Assembly: GCF_000373365.1 (NCBI RefSeq) | Contig: NZ_KB891219.1 | Location: forward strand, 166,123 to 230,122 | Source: Parafrankia discariae | Lineage (GTDB): Bacteria; Actinomycetota; Actinomycetes; Frankiales; Frankiaceae | Length of the DNA: 64,000 nucleotides | Reading direction: 5' to 3' | Made by a program: the position numbers and the translations under genes | The notes under the pieces: generated by a model | Told to the model about the DNA's origin: nothing | The model's input: the letters and a program-made list of their open reading frames with translations, nothing else | Databases searched by the model: none | Shown: in pieces, positions 12,104 to 28,549 of the stretch | Layout: each line of letters starts with the position of its first letter | How positions within the stretch are numbered: the first letter of the stretch is position 1

Positions 12104-15100
12104 TCAGGCGGAGTGCGCCTGGGCGAACGCGTCGAGGATCTCCCGGGGGATGCGGCCGCGGTCGCCGACCTCGAATCCGTTCTGGCGGGCCCAGACACGG
12201 ATCCTCCCGGCGTCCCGGCCGGCGGCCCCGTTCCCGCCCCCGCTCGCGGCCGTCGTGGTGGGGGTCGGGGCGCCGCCGGGCTCACCGGCGGCCCCGGGGT
12301 CGGGTGGGACCACCTGCGTGGCCAGTGTCCGGATCTGCTCCGCGTCCCTGGTGGACGTGAGCACGTTCGCCCCCGGCAGGTAGCTGATCGTGATCGGCTC
12401 GTCGTCGTCGTCGTCAGGCGTGGCGTCGTTGTCGTCGACCAGCCCGGGGCTGTCGGCGGGCGGCCGCGCACACACCGCTCGGGCCAGGTCGGTGAGATGC
12501 GCGTGATGCGTCAGCAGAATGATCTGCCAGCGTCCGGCGATCTCGGCCAGCACCCGGAGCGCCGCCTCGGCCCGCGTGTCGTCGAACGTCATCAGGACGT
12601 CGTCGAGCACGACCGGCAGCGTCGGCTCGCCGCGGCCGATCCGCTCCCGCTGGAGCTGGTCGATCGCGGCCAGGCGCAGGGCCAGGAACACCTGGTCGGC
12701 CGTGCCCTCCGAGAGCTCGCCCGGGCCGAGCTCGTCCTCGTCGGCGCGGATGACCCGCAGCGTCCGGGCACCGTCGCCGCGATCGATGGCCCGCAGGGCG
12801 ACGTAGCGGCCCTCGGTGAGCCGTTCGAGCAGGCGTCCCGCGTCCGCGAGCAGCGGGGACGCGTGACGACGCTCATAGGACTCCAGCTCGCGACCGAGCG
12901 TCTCGTACTGAATGCGCGCGATGACGTAGCGCTCCGCTGTCTCCGCCACGAGCGCCAGCGACTCCTGGGCACGGGCGTGCAGCTCGCCGGTCGCCGCGCC
13001 GCTCTCAAGATCGCGCAGATGTCGCTCGACCGTCCCGACGGCCGTCCAGGCCGCTGTCTGAGCGGCCGTGCGGCGCTCGTGCTCGTCGCGGGCGGCGGCG
13101 AGGTCGGCGGCGAGGTCCTCGTCGGTGCTCGCGGCCAACGCGTCGACAGCGGTCTCGAGGTCGTCGTCGGGCGCCGCGGCACGCAGCAGGCCCTCGGTGG
13201 CGGTCATCGCCGCCGTGATCCCGGCGAGGTCCCGGCCACGGTCCGCGGCGCCGGACAGCTCCTCCCCGGGTGCGAGGACGACCTGCGCGCGCAGGTCGTC
13301 CAGGCGGCCAGTGGCGCTGTCCCGAAGCAGCGTCGCGGCGGTGACCCGGGTGTTCAGCGTGGCGACCGCCTGGTCGATCTCCGTGCGACGGGTACGGCTC
13401 TCGATGCTCGCCCGGTGCCGTGCGCTGAGCTGATCGAGCAGATCGGCCAGCTCGCCGGCCTCGTGGGCCTCGTCGGGCGGGCCGGCCTCGTCGGGCGGGC
13501 CGGAGTGCTCGCCACGCGAGCGGCACAGGAGGCCGTGTCGGGCCGCGAGCTCGTGGACCTCCGTGGCGAACGCGCGATGGCGGCCGGCGGCGCGCTCGGC
13601 GTCCCGCGCCGCCCGGTCGGCCTGCTCGTGCAGGGCCGCGGCCCGGGCGAGCACGCCACGCCGTTCGGTCCAGCCCCGCGGGTCGGTGACCGACGCCAGC
13701 CCGGCCGCCCGGACGAGGACGTCCCAGTCGGCCTCGGCGCCGAGCAGCTCCTCCCGCCGCTTGTCCCGTTCGCGTTCGGCCTCCTCGACGGCCCGCCCGA
13801 AGTGGGTGGCGTCGGCCCGGCGGACCTGGGCGAGGTCGTCGTCCGCGAGGACGGTCTGGGCGCAGGTGAGGAGGCTGTCGAGGTCGGCGTCCACCCGGGC
13901 GAGGCCGATCTCGGCGAGTGCCTGGGCGAGCGCGGTCCGCTGGGCGCCGGCCTGCTCACCCAGCCGGGCGATGCGGATCTCGGCGGCGAGCAGCTCCGCG
14001 TGCGCCCGGTGCGCCTCGTCAACGGCCCGCTGGACGTCGTCGGCGTCCGCCCGCGAGGGTACGGCCAGACCCGGCTCGCGCCACTGGCCCTCCCACGCCG
14101 CGCGGGCTCGGTCGGCTTCCTCCGTGGCGGTCGCGGTGGCCGCGAGCGCCACGGAGGCCCGTTCCCGCGCGAGGTCGGCGTCCCGGTGCAGCTGGGCTCG
14201 CCGGGCGGCCAGGTCGGCATGGCGGATGAGCTGATCCGCGACCTCGTCGGCGCGGGCGATTCCGGCGGCGATGACCGGCAGCAGCTCGCGAGCCCGCTGT
14301 GGGGTGAGCCCACCGCCGGCCGGGGCCAGGACCGGGGCCGGGGTCGCCGGCGGCTGGCTGCCGGCCGCGTCGACCAGCAGGTTCCAGAGCTCCTCGCGGG
14401 TCGCGCGGGCCCGGTCCAACGTGGCCTGGTCCGGGAGGTCACGGCCGTCGGCGTCAGCGACCCGGCTCTGCGCGAGCTCGAGGTCCCGGGTGGCGTCGAC
14501 GAGTTCCTCCTCGCGCCGGGCGAGTGCCACCTCCGCGGTGTCGAGCCGGTCGCGCGCCAGCCGGATCTCGTCGCGCCCGGGCATCGCGGGTGGGGGTCCG
14601 TCCGGGTCGCGGGCACCGGCCCGGCGCATCGCCTCCCGGCGGTCGCGGACCGCGCGGGCCACCTCGTCGACGGCTGCCCTGGTCAGCGCGGTCGCCGACC
14701 CGTCGCCGGCTATCGCGGTGAGCACCGCCTTCAACTGGCTGACGGACGCCGGGTCGTGGCCCGGGGACTGGTCGGCGCCGTCGCGGCGCAGGCGGGCGGT
14801 GGCGAGCGCGTCCTCGGCGCGGCGCAGCTCGTCGGTCAACTCCCCGGCGGTCACGGCGAGCGCGTCGAGCTGGGCGGAGATGTCCCGTGGCACGTGCAGG
14901 TCGGCCAGGAGCTCGGCGGCGGTGCGTGGGTCGTCCGGGCCGGCCAGGTCGAGCAGGAGCAGACGGGCGGAGTCCGCGTGGCGTCCGGCCTCACTCTCGA
15001 GCGCGCGGGCCTCGGTACCGTCGCCGAGCCGTGCCACGCGGGACTGCTCCAGGCGGGTGATCATCTCGCCGTCGGCGAGCCCGGACTCGTCGGTCGTCAG

Positions 15101-16033
15101 CGCCTCCCGCGCGGCCCGGCGGTCGAGCAGGTCGGCGGTCAGCCGGTCGAGGTCGGCCTCGGCCGCCGCGGCCTCCCGCACGCTGGCGTCGAACAGCGCC
15201 GTCTGCTCGGCGGTGAGGGCCACGCCCGCGGCGAGCAGCGTGGCGTGGCGTTCCCGGAGCCTGATCAGTTCCCGGGCGTGCGGGGCGGCGCGCGCCCACC
15301 GCTCCAGGCGGGACCGGCGGTCGGCGGCGGCCCGGGTGGCCGCCGCGGCCGTCTGCGCGTCCCGGCGGCGCAGTGCCTGCTCCCGGCGGGCGTCCTCGAC
15401 ATGGGCCGCGCGGGTCATGGCGGACGCCGCCTGCGCGGCCAGCCGCTCGTAGTCCGCCAGCGCGGTGCGGACCTGGACGTTCTTGTTGTTGCGGTGGGCC
15501 TTGTAAAGGGAGTCCATCTCCGCGGCGAGTGTGTCGAGCAGGCCGCGGACCGCCCGCCCACTGCGCGCGGTGAAGACGAGCTCCGCCAGATCGCCGGTGC
15601 CCTCGAAGACGCTCGCGCCGCCCGCCCGCAACTCGGTGTGGGACAGCCCGAACGCCTGCCGCCAGCGCCGGCGGGCGTCGGCCCCGCCGGAACCCCACGG
15701 GGGGAGGAAGACCGCGCCGTCATCCACGGTCTGCAGACCGCTGTTGCGACGCCTCACCTCGACCCTCACCGGCGGCGTCGCCCCGGCCGAAGCGGCCCCG
15801 GCCGAAGGCGCCGCGGGCAGTTCGAGGTCGGCCGTCAGGCTCAGTGCGCCCTGGCCGAACTGGAAACTCCGCCGGGTGCCACGGAAGGTCCAGAGCAGGT
15901 CCGACAGAGCGTCGAGCATCGTCGACTTGCCGGCCTCGTTCGCGCCGACGACCAGTGTCAGCCCACGGCCGAACTCGACCCGGCGGTCCTCGAAGGCACC
16001 GTAACGGTCCAGGCCGAGCGCGCGGACCCGCAT
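12104..16033 (-). CDS. SbcC/YhaN-like SMC-type ATPase fused to an Lsr2-type DNA-binding domain
   Basis: The protein has 1309 residues. Walker A GANEAGKST lies at 30-38. Two long Ala/Arg/Glu/Asp-rich coiled-coil arms fill about 170-1090. The C-lobe has the signature LSEGTADQVFLALR, Walker B VVLDD (about 1141-1145) and the H-loop THH (about 1175-1177), as in Rad50/SbcC/YhaN. Unlike those, an acidic then Gly/Thr/Pro-rich linker (about 1188-1277) leads to a 32-residue end reading IRVWARQNGFEVGDRGRIP and onward. This matches the C-terminal domain of Lsr2, whose RGR tripeptide (here 1292-1294) enters the minor groove of AT-rich DNA. The start codon overlaps the nuclease stop by one base (TGATG). 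The likely role is DNA-end or hairpin processing; targeting to AT-rich DNA is inference. Confidence 0.9.
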   Translation of the reverse strand: MRVRALGLDRYGAFEDRRVEFGRGLTLVVGANEAGKSTMLDALSDLLWTFRGTRRSFQFGQGALSLTADLELPAAPSAGAASAGATPPVRVEVRRRNSGLQTVDDGAVFLPPWGSGGADARRRWRQAFGLSHTELRAGGASVFEGTGDLAELVFTARSGRAVRGLLDTLAAEMDSLYKAHRNNKNVQVRTALADYERLAAQAASAMTRAAHVEDARREQALRRRDAQTAAAATRAAADRRSRLERWARAAPHARELIRLRERHATLLAAGVALTAEQTALFDASVREAAAAEADLDRLTADLLDRRAAREALTTDESGLADGEMITRLEQSRVARLGDGTEARALESEAGRHADSARLLLLDLAGPDDPRTAAELLADLHVPRDISAQLDALAVTAGELTDELRRAEDALATARLRRDGADQSPGHDPASVSQLKAVLTAIAGDGSATALTRAAVDEVARAVRDRREAMRRAGARDPDGPPPAMPGRDEIRLARDRLDTAEVALARREEELVDATRDLELAQSRVADADGRDLPDQATLDRARATREELWNLLVDAAGSQPPATPAPVLAPAGGGLTPQRARELLPVIAAGIARADEVADQLIRHADLAARRAQLHRDADLARERASVALAATATATEEADRARAAWEGQWREPGLAVPSRADADDVQRAVDEAHRAHAELLAAEIRIARLGEQAGAQRTALAQALAEIGLARVDADLDSLLTCAQTVLADDDLAQVRRADATHFGRAVEEAERERDKRREELLGAEADWDVLVRAAGLASVTDPRGWTERRGVLARAAALHEQADRAARDAERAAGRHRAFATEVHELAARHGLLCRSRGEHSGPPDEAGPPDEAHEAGELADLLDQLSARHRASIESRTRRTEIDQAVATLNTRVTAATLLRDSATGRLDDLRAQVVLAPGEELSGAADRGRDLAGITAAMTATEGLLRAAAPDDDLETAVDALAASTDEDLAADLAAARDEHERRTAAQTAAWTAVGTVERHLRDLESGAATGELHARAQESLALVAETAERYVIARIQYETLGRELESYERRHASPLLADAGRLLERLTEGRYVALRAIDRGDGARTLRVIRADEDELGPGELSEGTADQVFLALRLAAIDQLQRERIGRGEPTLPVVLDDVLMTFDDTRAEAALRVLAEIAGRWQIILLTHHAHLTDLARAVCARPPADSPGLVDDNDATPDDDDDEPITISYLPGANVLTSTRDAEQIRTLATQVVPPDPGAAGEPGGAPTPTTTAASGGGNGAAGRDAGRIRVWARQNGFEVGDRGRIPREILDAFAQAHSA

Positions 16034-17340
16034 CAGGTGTCGTCCCCGGAGAGGCGTGCGAGCAGGCCGTCCCCGGCACGCCGGGCCAGGTCGGCGAGCG
16101 TGCGGGGATCGCCCAGGTCGAGCAGGTCGGCTCCGCGCAGCAGCCGCCCGACCTCACGGTCCAGCGGGCCGATCCAGCGCGCGAGGTCCCCCGGGCGGGC
16201 GCCCAGATCGTCGCAGGCCGCGCGTACGGCGGAGAGCAGCTCGGGGTCGACGGCCCCGGCCGGCCGCGGGTCGCTCACCCGATTGACGATCTTCTCCAGG
16301 CAGACCTGCAGGCCGTCGGCGACCGTACGGAGCTCCTCCCGCAACCGTTCGGCGTCGGCGAGACCCGCGGCGGCCCGCGACACGCCGGTGAGCACGGTGC
16401 GGGCGACGACCGGGCGGTCGCCCGCGGAGTCCCGCGCCGTCCGCAGCTCGGTCGTGACCCGGCCCAGGATGTCGTCGAGGGTGTCGGCACCGGTGGCGTC
16501 CACGGTGAGGACGGCCCAGCGGGCCACGTCGCAGGGGACGTGCTCGATCCGGGTGGGGCCGTCCTGGGAGACCTCGACCACGAGCGCGCCCTTCGGCCCG
16601 CTCTCCCGGGGGGTGCGGCCCTGGAGGTTGCCGCTGAACGCCGCGACCTGGTGGCCCCCGGGCCGGTCCCCCCGGGTGGCCGCGCCGCCGGAAGGCACGC
16701 CGTCGGAAAGCACGCCGTCGGGCGGCGGGCCGCCGTGCACGACGCGATGTGAGTGGACGTGGCCGAGAGCGAAGTAGTCGTAGCCCGTGCGGGCCAGGTC
16801 GTCCGCCGAGCATGGAGCGTAGTTGGCATGGCCCTCGGCGCCGTCGGCGGCGGTGTGCAGCAGGCCGACGTTCACCAGCCCGGCCACGGCGTCCGGATAG
16901 CGCTGGACGAGATTGTCGTGGACGGCGGCGGTCGCGTAGCTCTGCCCGTGCACGGCCAGCCCGAGGTCGTCGGCGACGTGCGTGCCCGGCTGGTCGGAGG
17001 CGAACACCCGGACGTTGGGCGGCAGCGTCAACGACCGGGTGATCTCGCTCTCCGCGTCGTGGTTGCCGGAGATCATGTAGACGGGGATGCCGGCGTCGCG
17101 CAGGCGGCCCATCTGCTCGACGAAGAAACGGCCGGTCGCGTAGTCCCGCCAGGTTCCGTCGTAGACGTCCCCGGCGAGCAGGAGCGCGTCGGCGGCCCGG
17201 TCGACGCTGAGATCGACGAGGTTCGCCAGAGCCCGCCGGGTCGCCTGCCGCAGCAGGTGGGCCAGGTCGCCGTCACCCAGCCGGGTCAGCCCTCGCAGCG
17301 GGCTGTCGAGATGGATGTCCGCGGCGTGGACGAGGCGCAT
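16033..17340 (-). CDS. SbcD/Mre11/YhaO-type DNA repair exonuclease
   Basis: The protein has 435 residues from ATG 17340 with GGGGAAG just upstream. It is a calcineurin-like phosphoesterase with the full metal-ligand set: DIHLD (8-12), GDVYD (57-61), GNHD (92-95), HT near 162 and GHVHSH (193-198). The last 200 residues form the capping and ATPase-binding part. Mre11-type enzymes use two manganese ions to cut DNA ends and hairpins and need a Rad50-like partner. That partner is the next gene, joined by a one-base stop/start overlap, so the pair should be made in fixed ratio. The open frame extends upstream of ATG 17340 without domain content. Confidence 0.92.
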   Translation of the reverse strand: MRLVHAADIHLDSPLRGLTRLGDGDLAHLLRQATRRALANLVDLSVDRAADALLLAGDVYDGTWRDYATGRFFVEQMGRLRDAGIPVYMISGNHDAESEITRSLTLPPNVRVFASDQPGTHVADDLGLAVHGQSYATAAVHDNLVQRYPDAVAGLVNVGLLHTAADGAEGHANYAPCSADDLARTGYDYFALGHVHSHRVVHGGPPPDGVLSDGVPSGGAATRGDRPGGHQVAAFSGNLQGRTPRESGPKGALVVEVSQDGPTRIEHVPCDVARWAVLTVDATGADTLDDILGRVTTELRTARDSAGDRPVVARTVLTGVSRAAAGLADAERLREELRTVADGLQVCLEKIVNRVSDPRPAGAVDPELLSAVRAACDDLGARPGDLARWIGPLDREVGRLLRGADLLDLGDPRTLADLARRAGDGLLARLSGDDT

Positions 17341-17609
17341 CTTCCCCCAGGCATCGGGCCGCCACAGGCCGGGGAGGGCGTGTGGTTCCGGGCGGTCGGC
17401 GCGTCCCGCGGGCGGTCGCCGGGAGACGCGGACGGCCCGTCGGAACAAGGGGGCGGGCCGAACGACCAGAACCTAGTACCGCAATCGGACATCTCGAACT
17501 GTCCACGCCGGAGGATCCGATGACCTCGCCAAGTTTCTGGTGTGTTGTCCCTGTTTTTTCGGAGTGTTGTCCTGGTGGGGTGTGGGTCGGAGCCGTGGGT
17601 TCGGGCGGT

Positions 17610-17819
17610 TCAGCGCCCGGACTTGGAGTGGGAGCCGGAGCGCGATCCGCCCCCGGAGCGGCGGGCCCGCGAGCGGGTGCCGACGTCCACCTGCCGGGCC
17701 GGGCCGGCGCCGGCGGCGACGTTCTCCAGGTCGGCGCTGATGCTGCTGTTGATGAGCCCGACCGTCCGGTCGCGGTCGCCGTCGTCGAGACCTTCGAGCA
17801 GGCTGTTTATCAGGGTCAC
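17610..17819 (-). CDS. Small hypothetical protein with strong ribosome site
   Basis: The protein has 69 residues from GTG 17819, preceded at good distance by GGAGGAAC, one of the best ribosome sites in the window. The first half (TLINSLLEGLDDGDRDRTVG) looks helical and acidic; the second half is Ala/Gly-rich and then a Ser/Arg/Gly tail with net positive charge. I do not recognise it. It lies between the nuclease gene and the SDR on the same strand, with about 270 bases of gene-poor sequence on its left. The ribosome site and the amphipathic N-terminus favour a real gene. Confidence 0.5.
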   Translation of the reverse strand: MTLINSLLEGLDDGDRDRTVGLINSSISADLENVAAGAGPARQVDVGTRSRARRSGGGSRSGSHSKSGR

Positions 17820-17895
17820 GGTGTTCCTCCACGCTGCGGGTCGACCTCGGGGTTCACTCGTCTGCTGCCCGGGTCGAGCGTGTTAAAGCGTGCGA

Positions 17896-17915
17896 TCGCC
17901 GCTTTTTCCCGGCGA
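17896..17915 (-). terminator. Hairpin beyond the SDR gene
   Basis: TCGCCG (17896-17901) and CGGCGA (17910-17915) pair across an 8-base loop, 23 bases past the SDR stop in its direction of transcription. It may end the SDR transcript before the small gene at 17819. Confidence 0.3.
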
Positions 17916-17937
17916 CGGGGATTCCTGGTGCCGGCAA

Positions 17938-18726
17938 TCAGGGCGCCGGCGAGAGGCCGCCGTCGAGGTTGATGCCGACGCCGGTCAGGTAGCCGGAGCG
18001 GGGGGAGAGCAGGAAGGCCGCGAGGTCGGCGAAGTCCTGAGCCCGGCCCACCCGTCCGAGGGGGATGCCGGCGCCCCGGCCCAGCTCGGCGTACAGCTCG
18101 TCCACGCCGATGCCGCGCTCGGCGGCCTGGCGGTCCCACTGGCCGCTCTCCAGCAGGCCGATCAGCACCGCGTTCACCCGGATTCCGTCCGGGCCGAGTT
18201 CCTTGGACAGCGCCTTGGTCAGGGCCAGCCCGGCCGCGCGGGAGACCGAGGTGGGGGTCGTCCCGGCGCCGGGGGTCTTCGCGGCGATGGCCAGCGTGTT
18301 GATCACGGACCCGCCCCCCGCCGCGCGCAGGTGCGGCAGCGCCAACCGGGTCAGCCGGACGGTGCTGTGCACCTTGAGCTGCAGGTCGGCGTCCCAGACC
18401 TCGTCGGTGTGCGAGGCGAACGGCCCGGCGGCGCTGCGCCCGGCGTTGTTCACCAGGCCGTCGATCCGCCCCCAGCGGCCGACGGCCTGCTCGACGAACC
18501 GCTCCAGATCGGCCGGGCGGGTGACGTCCGCGGGCACGGGCAGCAGCTCGGCACCGGCCGCGGCGGACGATGCCACCTCGGCGGCGAGGCGGTTGAGGCG
18601 GTCCGCGTCGCGGGCGCAGAACGCGACACGCGCCCCCTCGACGGCGAGAGCGCGCACCAGCGCGGCACCGAGACCGTCCGAGCCGCCGGTGATCAGGACG
18701 ACCTTGCCCGCCAGTTCGAGATCCAC
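17938..18726 (-). CDS. SDR family protein with non-canonical active site
   Basis: The protein has 262 residues from GTG 18726, preceded by GGAGGAG. It has the Rossmann loop TGGSDGLG (13-20), NNAG (93-96), and the C-terminal LTGVGINLDGG expected of classical short-chain dehydrogenases. The catalytic triad is not there. In the usual YxxxK position the sequence is TPTSVSRAAGLALT, which puts Thr159 for Tyr and Arg163 for Lys, and INTLAIAAK replaces the strand that carries the catalytic Ser. The cofactor may still bind. It may be a non-catalytic or differently acting member. It follows a FadR-type regulator by 136 bases on the same strand and may be its target. Confidence 0.85.
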   Translation of the reverse strand: MDLELAGKVVLITGGSDGLGAALVRALAVEGARVAFCARDADRLNRLAAEVASSAAAGAELLPVPADVTRPADLERFVEQAVGRWGRIDGLVNNAGRSAAGPFASHTDEVWDADLQLKVHSTVRLTRLALPHLRAAGGGSVINTLAIAAKTPGAGTTPTSVSRAAGLALTKALSKELGPDGIRVNAVLIGLLESGQWDRQAAERGIGVDELYAELGRGAGIPLGRVGRAQDFADLAAFLLSPRSGYLTGVGINLDGGLSPAP

Positions 18727-20941: not shown

Positions 20942-23680
20942 CTAGCGGAAGTACTCGACGCCGGAGCCCGTCATCCGCCGGGGCAGTGACTCGGGATCGG
21001 TTCCCGGTGGGAGCAGGCGGACGCCGGCATGCAGCAGGACCACGCCGGGCCGGCCGACGAGCACCGGGTCCAGGAGCACCTCGGCGACCGCCGGAACCTC
21101 CTCGGCGAGGCGGGCCAGCCGGTGCAGCACGTCCTCCAGGGCGGCCGTGTCCGCCGCCGGGGTGCCGGCGCCGCCGACGAGCAGTACCGCGCCGCGGATG
21201 CCCCGCACCATCTCGGCGGCGTCCCGGTCGGTGATCGGCAGCGCCCGGGCCAGCGGGTCGACCAGCAGGTCCGCGACGGCCCCGCCGAGGCGCAGCGACA
21301 GCAGCGGCCCGATCGCCGGGTCCTGGGTCATCCGGACCACGGTCGACACCCCGGCCGGTGCCATCGGCTGGACGACCATGTCGCCCGGTCCGACCGCGGC
21401 CCGGATCGTGCGCCAGGCCTCCGCGAGCGCGCCGGGTTCCGCGATGCCCAGCTGGACGGCACCGACGTCCAGTCGCCCGCGGAAGCGCTCGTCGGCGATC
21501 TTCAGCGCGACGGGCCAGCCGAGCCGCCCGGCCGCGTCCAGGGCCTGGGCGGCGGTCGTCACCGGCTCGCTGGGCCAGACCGCCAGCCCCACCCCGCCCA
21601 GGATGTCGCCGACCAGTTCCTGGGACAGCCAGGTCCCGTCCGTCGGGCCGGCGTCCGCCGCGCGGCGCGCGCGGTCCAGGTCGAGCCGGTCGAGCGCGGG
21701 GACGGCGCCCTGCTCACGGCTGCGCCAGGCCGCGTGGCCCGCCGCCCGGGCGAGGGCGAGCGCCGCCGACTCGGGGGAGGCGAACGACGGTACGGAGCCG
21801 GGCGCGGGTGTCACGGTGCCCTCGGCGTCGCCTGGGGCGGCCAGCGCGGACGGCATCCCGTCGTGCCCGAGGTAGGAGGCCACCACGGGCATCCGGCCGG
21901 AGCCCGCGACGGCTCGCACGGCCCGCGCGAGCTCCTCGACGGCCGGGTGCGGGGTGATCAGCGCCAGCACGGCGTCGACGTCCGCGCTGGCGGCGACCGC
22001 GCGCAGCGCGCGCTCGAACCGTTCCGGCGTGGCCATCGCGCCCAGGTCCACCGGGTTGGCCGGCTCCGGGCGGCCGAGCGGGTCGCTCAACGCCTCCGCC
22101 GTGGCGGCGGAGAAGGGCGGTACCTCCAGGCCGGCCGTTCGGCAGGCGTCCGTCGCCAGGGCGGCGAGCGCGCTGGACGTCCCCACGACGCCGACCCGCC
22201 GCCCGGCGGGCAGTGGCTGCGACGCCAGCAGCCCGGCCAGGTCGAACAGTTGGCTCAACGTGTCCACCCGGATGACTCCGGCGCTGGTGAACAGGGCGTC
22301 CAGGGCCGGGTCGGCGGCGCTGCGCCCGCTCTTCAGCGCGATCACCGGCTTGCGCCGGCCCACCCGCCGGGCGATCCGGGCGAACTTGCGCGGGTTGCCG
22401 AACCCCTGCAGGTGCAGCATGATCACATCGGTGCGCGGGTCCGACTGCCAGTACTGGAGCACGTCGTTGGCCGAGACGTCCGAGCGGTCCCCGGTGGAGA
22501 CGAACGTGGACAGGCCGATCGCGCGCCGGGACGCCTCGGTGAGGAAGGTCCCGGCCAGCGCCCCCGACTGGGCGAAGGCGCCGACCCGTCCCACCGGCGG
22601 GTCGCCGGCCGCGAAGGTGGCGTGCAGGCGGACCGCCGGATCGGTGTTGATCACACCCATCGCGTTCGGGCCGATCAGCCGCATTCCGGACTCGCGGGCC
22701 AGCCGGGTGACCTCGGCGAGCCGGGCCCGTCCCTCGGGACCGGCCTCGGCGAACCCGGCCGAGACGACGATCAGGCCACGGACGTCCTTCTCCGCGCAGG
22801 CCCGTACCGCGTCGGCCACGGCCGGTGCCGGGACGGCGATCACGGCGAGGTCGACCGCGTCGGGGATCTCGCGGACGTCCGGATAGGCGTAGACCGAGGC
22901 GATCTGCCGCGCCGTCGGGTTGACCGGGTAGACCGGGCCGTGGAAGTCGCTGGCCAGCAGCCGACGGAACACCTCGTGGCCGGCGCTGCCGGGCTGGCGG
23001 CTCGCGCCGAGGACCGCGACCGTGCGCGGTGTGAGCAGCCGCGCGATGCTCCGCGCCTCCGCGCGCTGCTCCAACGCCCGGGAGATGCCCCGGGTGCGCG
23101 GAGTCTGCGCCGTCGGGAACACCACCCGCACGCCACCGGCGCCGTCCGGCCGGGGGCCGCGCGAGCGGGTCTCGGCGCCGGCGAAACCCGCGGCGTGGAA
23201 GACCCGCAGCGCCCGGTCGTCGCCCGCGCGCAGATCGGCGACGAGGTGGCGCACCCCGCGCTCGCGGGCCGCGGCGATCAGATGCTCGAGCACCAGCAAC
23301 CCGAGCCCGCGCCCGCGCAGCGCCGCCTCGACGACGAGCGCGACCACCGCGTCGTCGGAGCCGGTGATCCGTTCGTAGTCCGCCGCTCCGACCAGACGTC
23401 CGCGCAGCACGGCCGCGACGGCGAGCCGCCCGCCCTCCCGGGCGTCACCGGCGTCACCGGCGGAGGTCGGTTCACCGGCTGTGGTGAGGTGCCTGGCCAG
23501 CTCGTCCGGGGAACGCTCCGCCCACCGCGCGGGCAGGCGCGCGACGTCCGTGGCGGACAGGCCGGCCCGCAGTTCGGCCAGCCCCGGGCCGTCGGTGTCC
23601 AGCACGGGGCGCAGCTGGACGGGAGCGCCGTCGGCAAGAACGCCGTCCGCCGCCCAGTGCGCCGGGAAGCGAGATGTCAC
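20942..23680 (-). CDS. GNAT acetyltransferase fused to NDP-forming acyl-CoA synthetase domains (PatA-like)
   Basis: The protein has 912 residues from GTG 23680. The N-terminal GNAT domain (about 20-190) has the acetyl-CoA loop RGRGLG at 122-127 and FHAAGF near 161. The NDP-forming acyl-CoA synthetase part follows: CoA-binding (VAVLGAS at about 221), the succinyl-CoA-ligase-like domains with RLIGPNAMGV and FAQSGALAGT, and an ATP-grasp segment in the last 220 residues. This is the inverted arrangement known from Streptomyces lividans PatA, compared with Salmonella Pat where GNAT is C-terminal. Such proteins acetylate a lysine of acyl-CoA synthetases to switch them off, with the synthetase part acting as sensor. 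The start has no separate ribosome site and may be leaderless. Confidence 0.88.
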   Translation of the reverse strand: MTSRFPAHWAADGVLADGAPVQLRPVLDTDGPGLAELRAGLSATDVARLPARWAERSPDELARHLTTAGEPTSAGDAGDAREGGRLAVAAVLRGRLVGAADYERITGSDDAVVALVVEAALRGRGLGLLVLEHLIAAARERGVRHLVADLRAGDDRALRVFHAAGFAGAETRSRGPRPDGAGGVRVVFPTAQTPRTRGISRALEQRAEARSIARLLTPRTVAVLGASRQPGSAGHEVFRRLLASDFHGPVYPVNPTARQIASVYAYPDVREIPDAVDLAVIAVPAPAVADAVRACAEKDVRGLIVVSAGFAEAGPEGRARLAEVTRLARESGMRLIGPNAMGVINTDPAVRLHATFAAGDPPVGRVGAFAQSGALAGTFLTEASRRAIGLSTFVSTGDRSDVSANDVLQYWQSDPRTDVIMLHLQGFGNPRKFARIARRVGRRKPVIALKSGRSAADPALDALFTSAGVIRVDTLSQLFDLAGLLASQPLPAGRRVGVVGTSSALAALATDACRTAGLEVPPFSAATAEALSDPLGRPEPANPVDLGAMATPERFERALRAVAASADVDAVLALITPHPAVEELARAVRAVAGSGRMPVVASYLGHDGMPSALAAPGDAEGTVTPAPGSVPSFASPESAALALARAAGHAAWRSREQGAVPALDRLDLDRARRAADAGPTDGTWLSQELVGDILGGVGLAVWPSEPVTTAAQALDAAGRLGWPVALKIADERFRGRLDVGAVQLGIAEPGALAEAWRTIRAAVGPGDMVVQPMAPAGVSTVVRMTQDPAIGPLLSLRLGGAVADLLVDPLARALPITDRDAAEMVRGIRGAVLLVGGAGTPAADTAALEDVLHRLARLAEEVPAVAEVLLDPVLVGRPGVVLLHAGVRLLPPGTDPESLPRRMTGSGVEYFR

Positions 23681-23904
23681 CCTGCCGACGCTATGCCGCG
23701 CCGGACCACGCCGCCCCTGCCCTTCACGGTCTTCCGTGTTCCGTTCCCGGTCCTCCGCCGCCCGGAGCCGACACCGCCCGCCACCGGATTGCACAATGGC
23801 TCGGACCGGCCGGCGGCCGGCGATGCCACGGGAATGCCGACAAGCCGGCAGGACCGAACCGGCGGCGACGAGCTGGCAGGGCCGAATCGACGAGGGAGCG
23901 TCAC

Positions 23905-26483: not shown

Positions 26484-28220
26484 TCAGGGCCGGTGGCGCA
26501 GGCTGCCCGCCGGGCGGCCACCGGCCTCGTCCTCGGACCGGTACTCGAGCGCGCCGTCGGGTGCGAGGCGCAGCCTGGTCGTGCCGCCGCTCGTGCACAC
26601 CGGCAGGCCCAGCAGGGTGGGGTTGTCGCCCGAGCCGCCGATGTCGCGCAGAACGACCTCGGGCCCGGAGCCCGCCGCGCCGCTGATCCCCACGAGCTGC
26701 TGGTCGCCGACGCACCGGATCGGCGCGCCGCCTCCCAACGCCCCCAGCCCGACCAGCGTGACCTCGGCGTGGCCCACGGTCTGGCCGCTCTCACCGGGCC
26801 GCAACGTGATCACGACGTCCTGCGCGACCCCCAGCCGCGAGGTGATCGGCCCCTCCCAGGTCCCGGCGTACCCGGCCGGCAGGGCCCCGGGCACCGTGGG
26901 ACCGGACCCGCCCGAAGGCGTTGGCGGTCCGCCGGCGGACGGATCCGCGGTCGAATGGTCGAGCAGGTCGGTCAGGGAGCCGAGCCCGGCGGTCGTCCCG
27001 GGACTCACCTCGGCGCCCGTGCCGGCGCCCGTGTCGCTGTCCGAGCCGCGTAGGGCGACCGTCATGACAGCCGTCACGATCACGGCGAGGCACACGACAC
27101 CCAGGGCGGCGACGGTCACGAGTGCGCGCCGCCCACCGCCCGGCCTGGCGACGGGTCCGACCGGGGCACCCGACGGTGCGGGCGGTGCGCCTGGTGGTGT
27201 GGCCCGCGATGCGCCCGACGGTGTGGCCCGTGTCGGTGTGGTCGGCATGGCCGGCGCCGGCGGCCAGGGCTGTGCCCGGTTGTGATCTTCGGGCGTGGGG
27301 TGGTCGTTGGTCGAGGTGATGACGGGGGCGTCCAGGTCGAGGAGCGCGACGGCCTGCCGGCTCAGCCCGGTGACCAGATCCTGCGGCAGCCATCCGGTGG
27401 TGATCAGCCCCGCGGCGCCGCCGCCCGGCGCGAGCTCCGCGAGCACGCCGAGCGGCCCCGGGCGCTCAGCCGGCGCCTTGCGCAGGCAGGCGTCCACGAC
27501 GGCACGCAACTCGGCCGGGACCGCGTCGAGCCGCGGCTCGCCCGTCAGGATGCCGTACATCACCGCGGGCATCCCGCTGCCCGAGAACGGGCCCGACCCC
27601 GTCGCGGCGAAGACGAGCACCGAACCGAGGGCGAAGACGTCGCTGGCCGGCCCGACGTCCCGCCCGCCGATCTGCTCGGGTGACATGAAGGCCGGCGAGC
27701 CGATCGCGGACCCCGAGTGGGTGAGCACGGTGGCGTCGAACGCGCGGGAGATCCCGAAGTCGATGACCCGTGGCCCGTCGAGGCCGAGCAGCACGTTCGA
27801 GGGCTTGAGATCGCGGTGCACCAGGCCGGCGGCGTGCACGGCACTCAGGGCCTCGGCGAGGCCGGCACCCAGTGCTCGCACGGTCGACACCGGCAGTGGG
27901 CCGCGTCGGCGCACCGCCTCCAGCAGGGACGGCCCCGGGACGTAACCGGTGACCAGATAGGGCTGCTCGGCATCCGGGTCGGCGTCGATCACCGGCGCGG
28001 TCCAGGAGCCGCCGACCCGGCGGGCCGCCTCGACCTCGCGGCGGAAGCGGGTCCGGAACGTCGGGTCGCCGGCGAACTCCGGCCGGATCACCTTGACGGC
28101 GACAGTGCGCCCGCCCGGGCTCCGGGCCAGGTACACCCGGCCCATCCCGCCGGCACCGAGCAGGCCGAGCAGCCGGTATCCGCCGGTGGTCCGGGGATCA
28201 TCCGCGCGGAGGGGTTCCAT
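26484..28220 (-). CDS. Membrane-anchored Ser/Thr protein kinase
   Basis: The protein has 578 residues from ATG 28220, with GGAGGAG 9-10 bases before it. The PknB-type kinase domain fills about 13-275: glycine loop LGAGGMGRV (21-29), Lys43, HRDLKPSN (135-142), DFG (154-156). All catalytic residues are present. A Pro/Ala/Thr-rich juxtamembrane stretch (about 305-362) leads to one TM helix (about 366-390) and an extracellular domain of about 185 residues. That domain has two Cys (in IRCVG and LPVCTS) likely to form a disulfide and no PASTA repeats; it looks like a small beta sandwich of unknown ligand. The 3' end faces the helicase-associated gene with 5 bases between stops. Confidence 0.92.
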   Translation of the reverse strand: MEPLRADDPRTTGGYRLLGLLGAGGMGRVYLARSPGGRTVAVKVIRPEFAGDPTFRTRFRREVEAARRVGGSWTAPVIDADPDAEQPYLVTGYVPGPSLLEAVRRRGPLPVSTVRALGAGLAEALSAVHAAGLVHRDLKPSNVLLGLDGPRVIDFGISRAFDATVLTHSGSAIGSPAFMSPEQIGGRDVGPASDVFALGSVLVFAATGSGPFSGSGMPAVMYGILTGEPRLDAVPAELRAVVDACLRKAPAERPGPLGVLAELAPGGGAAGLITTGWLPQDLVTGLSRQAVALLDLDAPVITSTNDHPTPEDHNRAQPWPPAPAMPTTPTRATPSGASRATPPGAPPAPSGAPVGPVARPGGGRRALVTVAALGVVCLAVIVTAVMTVALRGSDSDTGAGTGAEVSPGTTAGLGSLTDLLDHSTADPSAGGPPTPSGGSGPTVPGALPAGYAGTWEGPITSRLGVAQDVVITLRPGESGQTVGHAEVTLVGLGALGGGAPIRCVGDQQLVGISGAAGSGPEVVLRDIGGSGDNPTLLGLPVCTSGGTTRLRLAPDGALEYRSEDEAGGRPAGSLRHRP

Positions 28221-28549
28221 CCGGGACGACTCCTCCCGCCCGCCGCGTGACTGCCGGCCGGGGCGGCGGCCGTCCTGCGCGGCCGGCCCCGTCCCGCCGC
28301 CGTGCGACTCGGGCGACCTGGAACGATCGTTTGGGCAAGTCCCATCATGTAGCCCTCGGCCGCGGCGACGACCGGCGCCTCGGGCCATGGTGGGCTCCGG
28401 TTCCGGGAGTGTCACAGGTCATCCGGCGGCGGCGGCGGTCCGAACCCGCCGAAGTCGTAGACAAGGGGGTGCGGCGGACGTCCACGGGACGCCGGCCGGG
28501 CCGCCGTCCACGGGTCGGCACCTCGAGTCGGAAGGCACAGGCAGACAGC
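28221..28549. other. Divergent intergenic region between kinase and MarR genes
   Basis: About 330 bases holding the promoters of both flanking genes. The only clear element is a 10-bp palindrome at 28322-28331. No gene is supported here. Confidence 0.4.
28322..28331. promoter_or_regulatory. 10-bp palindrome AACGATCGTT
   Basis: A perfect self-complementary decamer in an AT-richer patch, about 100 bases upstream of the kinase start and 220 from the MarR start. A MarR-type dimer could bind it; inference from position only. Confidence 0.3.

Follow-up and report, generated by a model that had tools for sequence, protein, structure and literature searches.

Proteins that join a DNA-end function to an Lsr2 DNA-binding domain have been described in phages: cluster J mycobacteriophages carry a Ku–Lsr2 fusion in which an RGR tripeptide is noted (PMC8612146; the fusion also in PMC3706429), and the RGR of Lsr2 is presented as an AT-hook-like motif that reads the minor groove of AT-rich DNA (PMC6936261). 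YhaN, also called SbcE, is a Rad50-like ATPase that is reported to take part in break repair and competence in Bacillus subtilis (cited as Krishnamurthy 2010). Here we describe a locus of Parafrankia discariae in which these two types of protein meet. Within a window of 64,000 nucleotides (contig NZ_KB891219.1, positions 166,123 to 230,122; 73 % GC), a gene on the minus strand (12104-16033) specifies a YhaN/SbcE-type ATPase with an Lsr2 DNA-binding domain at its C-terminus.

The closest parallel in print is Ku–Lsr2 of the cluster J mycobacteriophages, which likewise consists of a DNA-end protein and a C-terminal Lsr2 DNA-binding domain including the RGR; the phage protein is described as serving end joining, whereas here a host Rad50-like ATPase is paired with a nuclease gene. 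As in yhaONM of B. subtilis, an AAA_27-type Rad50-like ATPase adjoins a metallophosphoesterase, but the Lsr2 tail is absent from all 38 relatives that we read outside the order Frankiales (the B. subtilis protein is not among them). The pair shares with SbcCD and Mre11–Rad50 the combination of a nuclease gene with a coiled-coil ATPase gene and motifs of the same kind, and differs from them in that YhaO scores under the TIGR00619 cut-off and the ATPase has no CxxC hook. With the silencer Lsr2 it shares the C-terminal DNA-binding domain, although about 1,200 residues of ATPase replace the dimerisation domain. A literature search returned no paper naming Lsr2 together with SbcC, Rad50 or YhaN; the initial annotation, which knew of no characterised protein with this layout, agrees with that result, but the same logic is published in Ku–Lsr2.

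The ATPase and its Lsr2 tail

The features of the gene are as follows, with residue numbers of the encoded protein.

12104..16033, minus strand: YhaN/SbcE-type Rad50-like ATPase with Lsr2 tail, 1309 amino acids (aa), ATG start
15404..16033, minus strand: N-terminal ATPase lobe, residues 1-210, Pfam AAA_27 (E 4.4e-37)
15923-15946, minus strand: Walker A GANEAGKS, residues 30-37, by motif reading
12476..12868, minus strand: C-terminal ATPase lobe (C-lobe), residues 1056-1186, with signature LSEGT, Walker B VVLDD and THHxH
12230..12367, minus strand: variable linker rich in Gly, Ala, Pro and Thr, residues about 1223-1268, with a short R-x4-IR element conserved inside it
12116..12223, minus strand: Lsr2 DNA-binding domain, residues 1271-1306, by Pfam PF23359, PDB sequences and fold
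12152..12160, minus strand: RGR tripeptide, residues 1292-1294, invariant in nine aligned copies

A long coil separates the AAA_27 lobe from a Rad50-like C-lobe that holds the ATPase signature (residues 1107-1111) and Walker B (residues 1141-1145), which is the layout of YhaN/SbcE. Searched against PDB sequences, the C-lobe gave weak matches to Rad50 only (E 0.007). No CxxC zinc hook is present in the ATPase, whose cysteines lie solely at residues 724, 837 and 1188, and the protein fell below the NCBIfam SbcC/Rad50 cut-offs (best PRK03918, 22.8 bits versus 700), a weak test in that the SbcC-like protein of the same genome is also sub-cut-off. The opposite plus strand is open for long stretches as well (2227 aa), an effect of high GC; a chance reading frame was ruled out, because the domains and the conserved relatives sit on the minus strand.

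Residues 1271-1306 matched PF23359 (Lsr2_DNA-bd) with E 4.8e-13 and 48.7 bits against a cut-off of 26.9, and phmmer searches of the tail against PDB sequences returned the three C-domain entries of Lsr2 at E about 6e-7 and, far more weakly, a single dihydrolipoyl acetyltransferase chain (1w4g, E 0.44). The Lsr2 dimerisation domain PF11774 found no match in the ATPase in a Pfam scan at E up to 0.1. The tail was modelled by AlphaFold2 from a 19-row alignment of the window, Parafrankia soli (L050) and 17 of 27 viral loci. The model predicts two helices (model positions 22-36 and 48-59) flanking the RGR loop, with a predicted local distance difference test score (pLDDT) per ten residues of 53, 48, 72, 90, 83 and 85 (mean 71.9; predicted template modelling score 0.48) and of 72-90 within the Lsr2 domain itself. 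Foldseek ranked three Lsr2 entries first against the PDB (E 0.05-0.17; best 2kng, E 0.05, probability 0.98), structural alignment to 2kng gave Z 5.5 and a root-mean-square deviation of 3.9 over 49 residues, and among 24 chains aligned the three Lsr2 entries (Z 3.4-5.5) alone reached Z 2. It is the sequence match, not the fold, that carries the predicted Lsr2 identity of the tail.

These results bear out much of the initial annotation, which had read Rad50/YhaN-like ATPase motifs (Walker A, LSEGT and VVLDD are in place, together with the AAA_27 match) and an Lsr2-type end with the RGR at exactly these residues, and had proposed the comparison of a tail model with Lsr2 structures, which indeed proved to be its best matches. 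Its 90-residue acidic linker has to be redrawn: a variable linker exists, but residues up to about 1222 are conserved in relatives (ITISYLP type), and the acidic DDDDDE run found here is not common to the seven aligned relatives.

Distribution and history of the tail

Genome searches at E 1e-12 were limited to the top-ranking candidates of a preliminary pass (6 to 33 per genome in the surveys of the class, of family f17 and of the phylum), a procedure that more distant YhaN proteins escape. Of the 35 genomes of the order, nine contain the ATPase, namely all six of the genus and 3 of 29 others; within the 27 more complete genomes of the order the count is 6. All nine copies carry the Lsr2 tail with an invariant RGR, so that the recurrence of the fusion in other genomes, on which the initial annotation had made its proposal depend, is borne out; in one of them (G001) the gene is broken by a frame break and the tail lies on the second piece. 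A survey of the class found the ATPase in 16 of 393 genomes, nine of these being the order copies, and family f17 has it in 8 of 120. A draw across the phylum with a C-lobe-plus-tail profile matched 40 of 396 genomes, the window's own included, two of them (G152 and G759) through the Lsr2 part alone, and a scan of a genome contig collection gave a match in Parafrankia soli only.

C-termini outside the order were read in the 38 ATPases, with 10 further rows of the phylum draw left out. The protein stops 4-23 residues past the ATPase lobe in 34 of them, and the tail is therefore not needed for the basic function. The other four (L060, L063, L068 and L069, all from f17, where they make up half of the eight members) extend 55-70 residues with the pattern C-x2-C ... 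GRGR(P/R)P ... C-x2-C (RGRP in three, RGRRP in one), possibly a zinc ribbon with an AT-hook-like core. The name AT-hook was rejected as mere resemblance, Pfam AT_hook not being among the matches at E up to 1. This four-cysteine RGR pattern was confined to these four ATPases among 8,390 open frames from 185 loci, a few and non-random set. Among the relatives read, the Lsr2 tail is restricted to the order.

A C-lobe scan of viral contigs yielded no relative among 66 pattern matches, phage records contained one weak partial match to the ATPase, and none of 193 matching plasmid records covered 80 % of the query; a phage or plasmid origin of the ATPase was rejected on these grounds. The best 20 of the 193 plasmid matches end at query residue 1172-1189, so the tail lies outside those matches; on plasmids, relatives bear the annotation 'YhaN family protein' and adjoin a gene annotated 'DNA repair exonuclease'.

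Compared with the window, seven relatives were 27-71 % identical in the linker and 51-90 % in the tail. Nonsynonymous divergence (dN), counted for six of the eight other order copies, was 0.06-0.42 in the tail versus 0.18-0.88 in the linker and lower in the tail in all six comparisons; relative to the coil it was lower in five of the six and equal (0.06) in the closest pair. Across the nine sequences no change is seen in the RGR, in the W-A-R of helix one or at several positions flanking them. On a tree of 47 rows built from the C-lobe region, a single change accounts for the nine rows with an Lsr2 tail (support 94/95, marginally short of the tool's star, and 94 % of bootstrap trees), and the group sits in an unresolved fork with f17 and the single rows L064 and L072, while the four-cysteine tail needs four changes. 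This would fit a single gain of the Lsr2 tail, short of proving it.

PF23359 was matched in at least 120 of 148 class genomes. A long open frame was considered as a sign of further Lsr2 fusions and rejected: the six long-frame matches fetched (four picked by the tail model, two read directly) are, by eye, short proteins with the frame open upstream, of which L186, L189, L190 and L191 are Lsr2-like and L187 and L188 have a different short N-terminus. Lsr2 domains at the end of other proteins were seen on three viral contigs, in a Ku beta-barrel protein (L119:2197-3093, IMGVR_UViG_3300040985_002057), an HNH endonuclease (L130:2052-3023) and a DUF2637 protein (L116:2356-3135), and in another class in an RNase_T/DnaQ-type exonuclease with a sub-cut-off BRCT match (L100:196-1776).

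The yhaO partner and the genomic setting

Two features lie upstream of the ATPase gene.

16033..17340, minus strand: YhaO/SbcD-type metallophosphoesterase, 435 aa, likely ATG at 17340
17610..17819, minus strand: small 69-aa open reading frame (ORF) with a basic C-terminus, upstream of yhaO and kept in five other genomes of the genus

The stop of yhaO overlaps the start of yhaN by one base (TGATG), and yhaO is directly upstream of the ATPase gene in all nine order members (window included) and in 8 of 8 members of f17. The YhaO motifs DIH, GDVYD, GNHD, LLH and GHVH are all intact, and the protein scored 59 against TIGR00619 (cut-off 77.65). A Pfam scan of the 69-aa ORF gave no match. Elsewhere the genome holds a separate SbcD above the family cut-off (189 bits), followed by an SbcC-like ATPase below its own (TIGR00618, E 8.4e-74, 249 bits versus 478.5), which has no tail, because the match runs to residue 1108 of 1113. 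Five other Lsr2-domain proteins were found in the genome. Control of the pair by the SOS response was tried and set aside: a search of the window for LexA-type boxes of the actinobacterial type, with a tolerance of 3 mismatches, found 48 sites, more than in shuffled sequences (28 on average and 42 at most), but none of the 48 lies in 17217-18703, that is, upstream of yhaO, and a single one lies inside yhaO at 17201.

All six genomes of the genus share the gene order short-chain dehydrogenase/reductase (SDR), small ORF, yhaO, yhaN, pheA, phzF. The pheA region was read in four genomes outside the genus, of eight searched. In three of these (G009, G013 and G016), pheA has a homologue of the window's acyl-CoA-synthetase-like gene (20942-23794) within about 140 bases, and the segment with yhaO–yhaN is therefore missing there; in the fourth (G010) no synthetase homologue was found in the 18 kb read around pheA. 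The pair of G016 lies elsewhere, with a transposase-type helix-turn-helix ORF about 5 kb downstream. The scattered occurrence of the pair and its varying position are compatible with transfer within the family, or with losses.

The neighbours scanned with Pfam (3.9-28.4 kb) are mainly metabolic: pirin, a flavin adenine dinucleotide enzyme, FtsH, a zinc peptidase, PhzF, PheA, SDR, GntR, the acyl-CoA-synthetase-like protein and a protein kinase. Against PADLOC, eight of these ten had no match at 1e-5; FtsH, which is above its own NCBIfam cut-off, matched the IetA and TRIP13 models, and the kinase (26484-28415, minus strand) matched PD-T4-6 strongly (best E 9.7e-62) and others, although it may be just a general Ser/Thr kinase. 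Neither was counted as a defence island, because general AAA and kinase domains match such models; that the kinase, 9 kb from the pair, belongs to one is possible.

What the tail may do

We consider it probable, though by no means assured, that the tail anchors a DNA-end-processing ATPase–nuclease complex on AT-rich DNA, and count in favour the domain match, the fold, the nine tails in nine copies, the contrast in identity and dN, the pairing with yhaO, the presence of SbcD and an SbcC-like protein elsewhere in the genome and the other Lsr2 fusions. YhaN and YhaO would form a second, divergent Mre11–Rad50-like end-processing complex beside SbcCD, with the Lsr2 domain as a flexibly tethered DNA-binding arm whose RGR would insert into the AT-rich minor groove. 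Because such ATPases dimerise, each complex would carry at least two arms, and the paired arms may replace the avidity that Lsr2 itself gains through oligomerising. The complex would thereby load more readily onto AT-rich DNA or stay on it longer. In a genome of such high GC, DNA of this kind is expected to be mostly regulatory or acquired, and the main targets would be acquired or phage DNA, together with other stretches bound by Lsr2.

Several observations weigh against this reading. In the closest pair the tail dN of 0.06 matches that of the coil and is near the tail's own synonymous value (dS 0.07), with very few changes; the C-lobe has a lower dN than the tail in every one of the six comparisons; and the 34 of 38 relatives outside the order are tail-less. 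Taken in absolute terms, the fold lends weak support over its 37 residues, since Foldseek gives nothing at 0.001 and such Z values are common; the AT preference of the tail and the nuclease action are predictions from sequence.

The tail could instead be a general nucleoid tether that adds DNA affinity with no useful selectivity for AT-rich or foreign DNA, the pair then serving as one more repair system of the usual sort; the SAP/HEH tails found on other repair proteins offer a model. Such a tether, which we hold to be a tentative alternative, would suit the mainly metabolic neighbours and the way in which C-termini vary by family, from the Lsr2 type in the order to the four-cysteine RGR type in half of the f17 members and none in the other 34, but it leaves aside that both tail types contain RGR and that the Lsr2 domain is described as a reader of the AT-rich minor groove (PMC6936261). 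If, on the other hand, the tail guides YhaO to the ends of invading AT-rich phage or plasmid DNA, which the nuclease would then degrade, the patchy occurrence of the pair, its differing sites in the genus and in G016 (there with a transposase-type ORF about 5 kb away) and its absence beside pheA in three genomes would be expected, as might the partial PADLOC matches of the ATPase (mad3, E 2.7e-11, residues 6-49; PtuA, 2.1e-8; LmuB, 1.7e-7, residues 749-1190; GajA). Yet the best 25 of 65 PADLOC families are all partial, none spanning the ATPase, YhaO has one match at E 0.075, only FtsH and the kinase were matched among the ten neighbours, as general domains would be, and the synteny with metabolic genes is long kept in the genus; we judge a system of this kind unlikely.

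Highly unlikely, in our estimate, is a complex that strips or rearranges the Lsr2 coat of DNA and so allows breaks in silenced regions to be repaired: the tail would compete for the sites of the five other Lsr2-domain proteins, but one or two tails would be poor competitors of cooperative Lsr2 filaments. Binding of a protein rather than DNA, as by the similarly folded E3-binding domain, has the weak 1w4g match to recommend it and is extremely unlikely, given that Lsr2 entries match several hundred thousand-fold better and the RGR is invariant. Anchoring on AT-rich DNA is the preferred reading, to which action against foreign DNA or the removal of Lsr2 may possibly be added; the machine of the initial annotation, which would find foreign AT-rich DNA and cut or guard it, is an inference of this kind. 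Sequence alone does not tell repair apart from the breakdown of foreign DNA or from access to Lsr2-coated DNA.

Complexes of the Rad50 type normally act on DNA ends regardless of sequence. Seen beside Ku–Lsr2 and the other fusions, the ATPase points to the Lsr2 reading head as an address tag that can be moved between DNA-end enzymes. A bolder extension, which we regard as quite unlikely, is that high-GC actinobacteria and their phages use such AT-reading tags in a contest in which the phage Ku-tail protein circularises genomes and the host Rad50-like ATPase–nuclease, with its Lsr2 or unrelated RGR tail, seizes the same ends. A conserved sequence-reading arm on such an enzyme makes a testable case of composition-guided end processing, in which a change of the RGR alone could separate targeting from catalysis, and the cell may in this way direct an enzyme that processes breaks to AT-rich DNA, which is often foreign.

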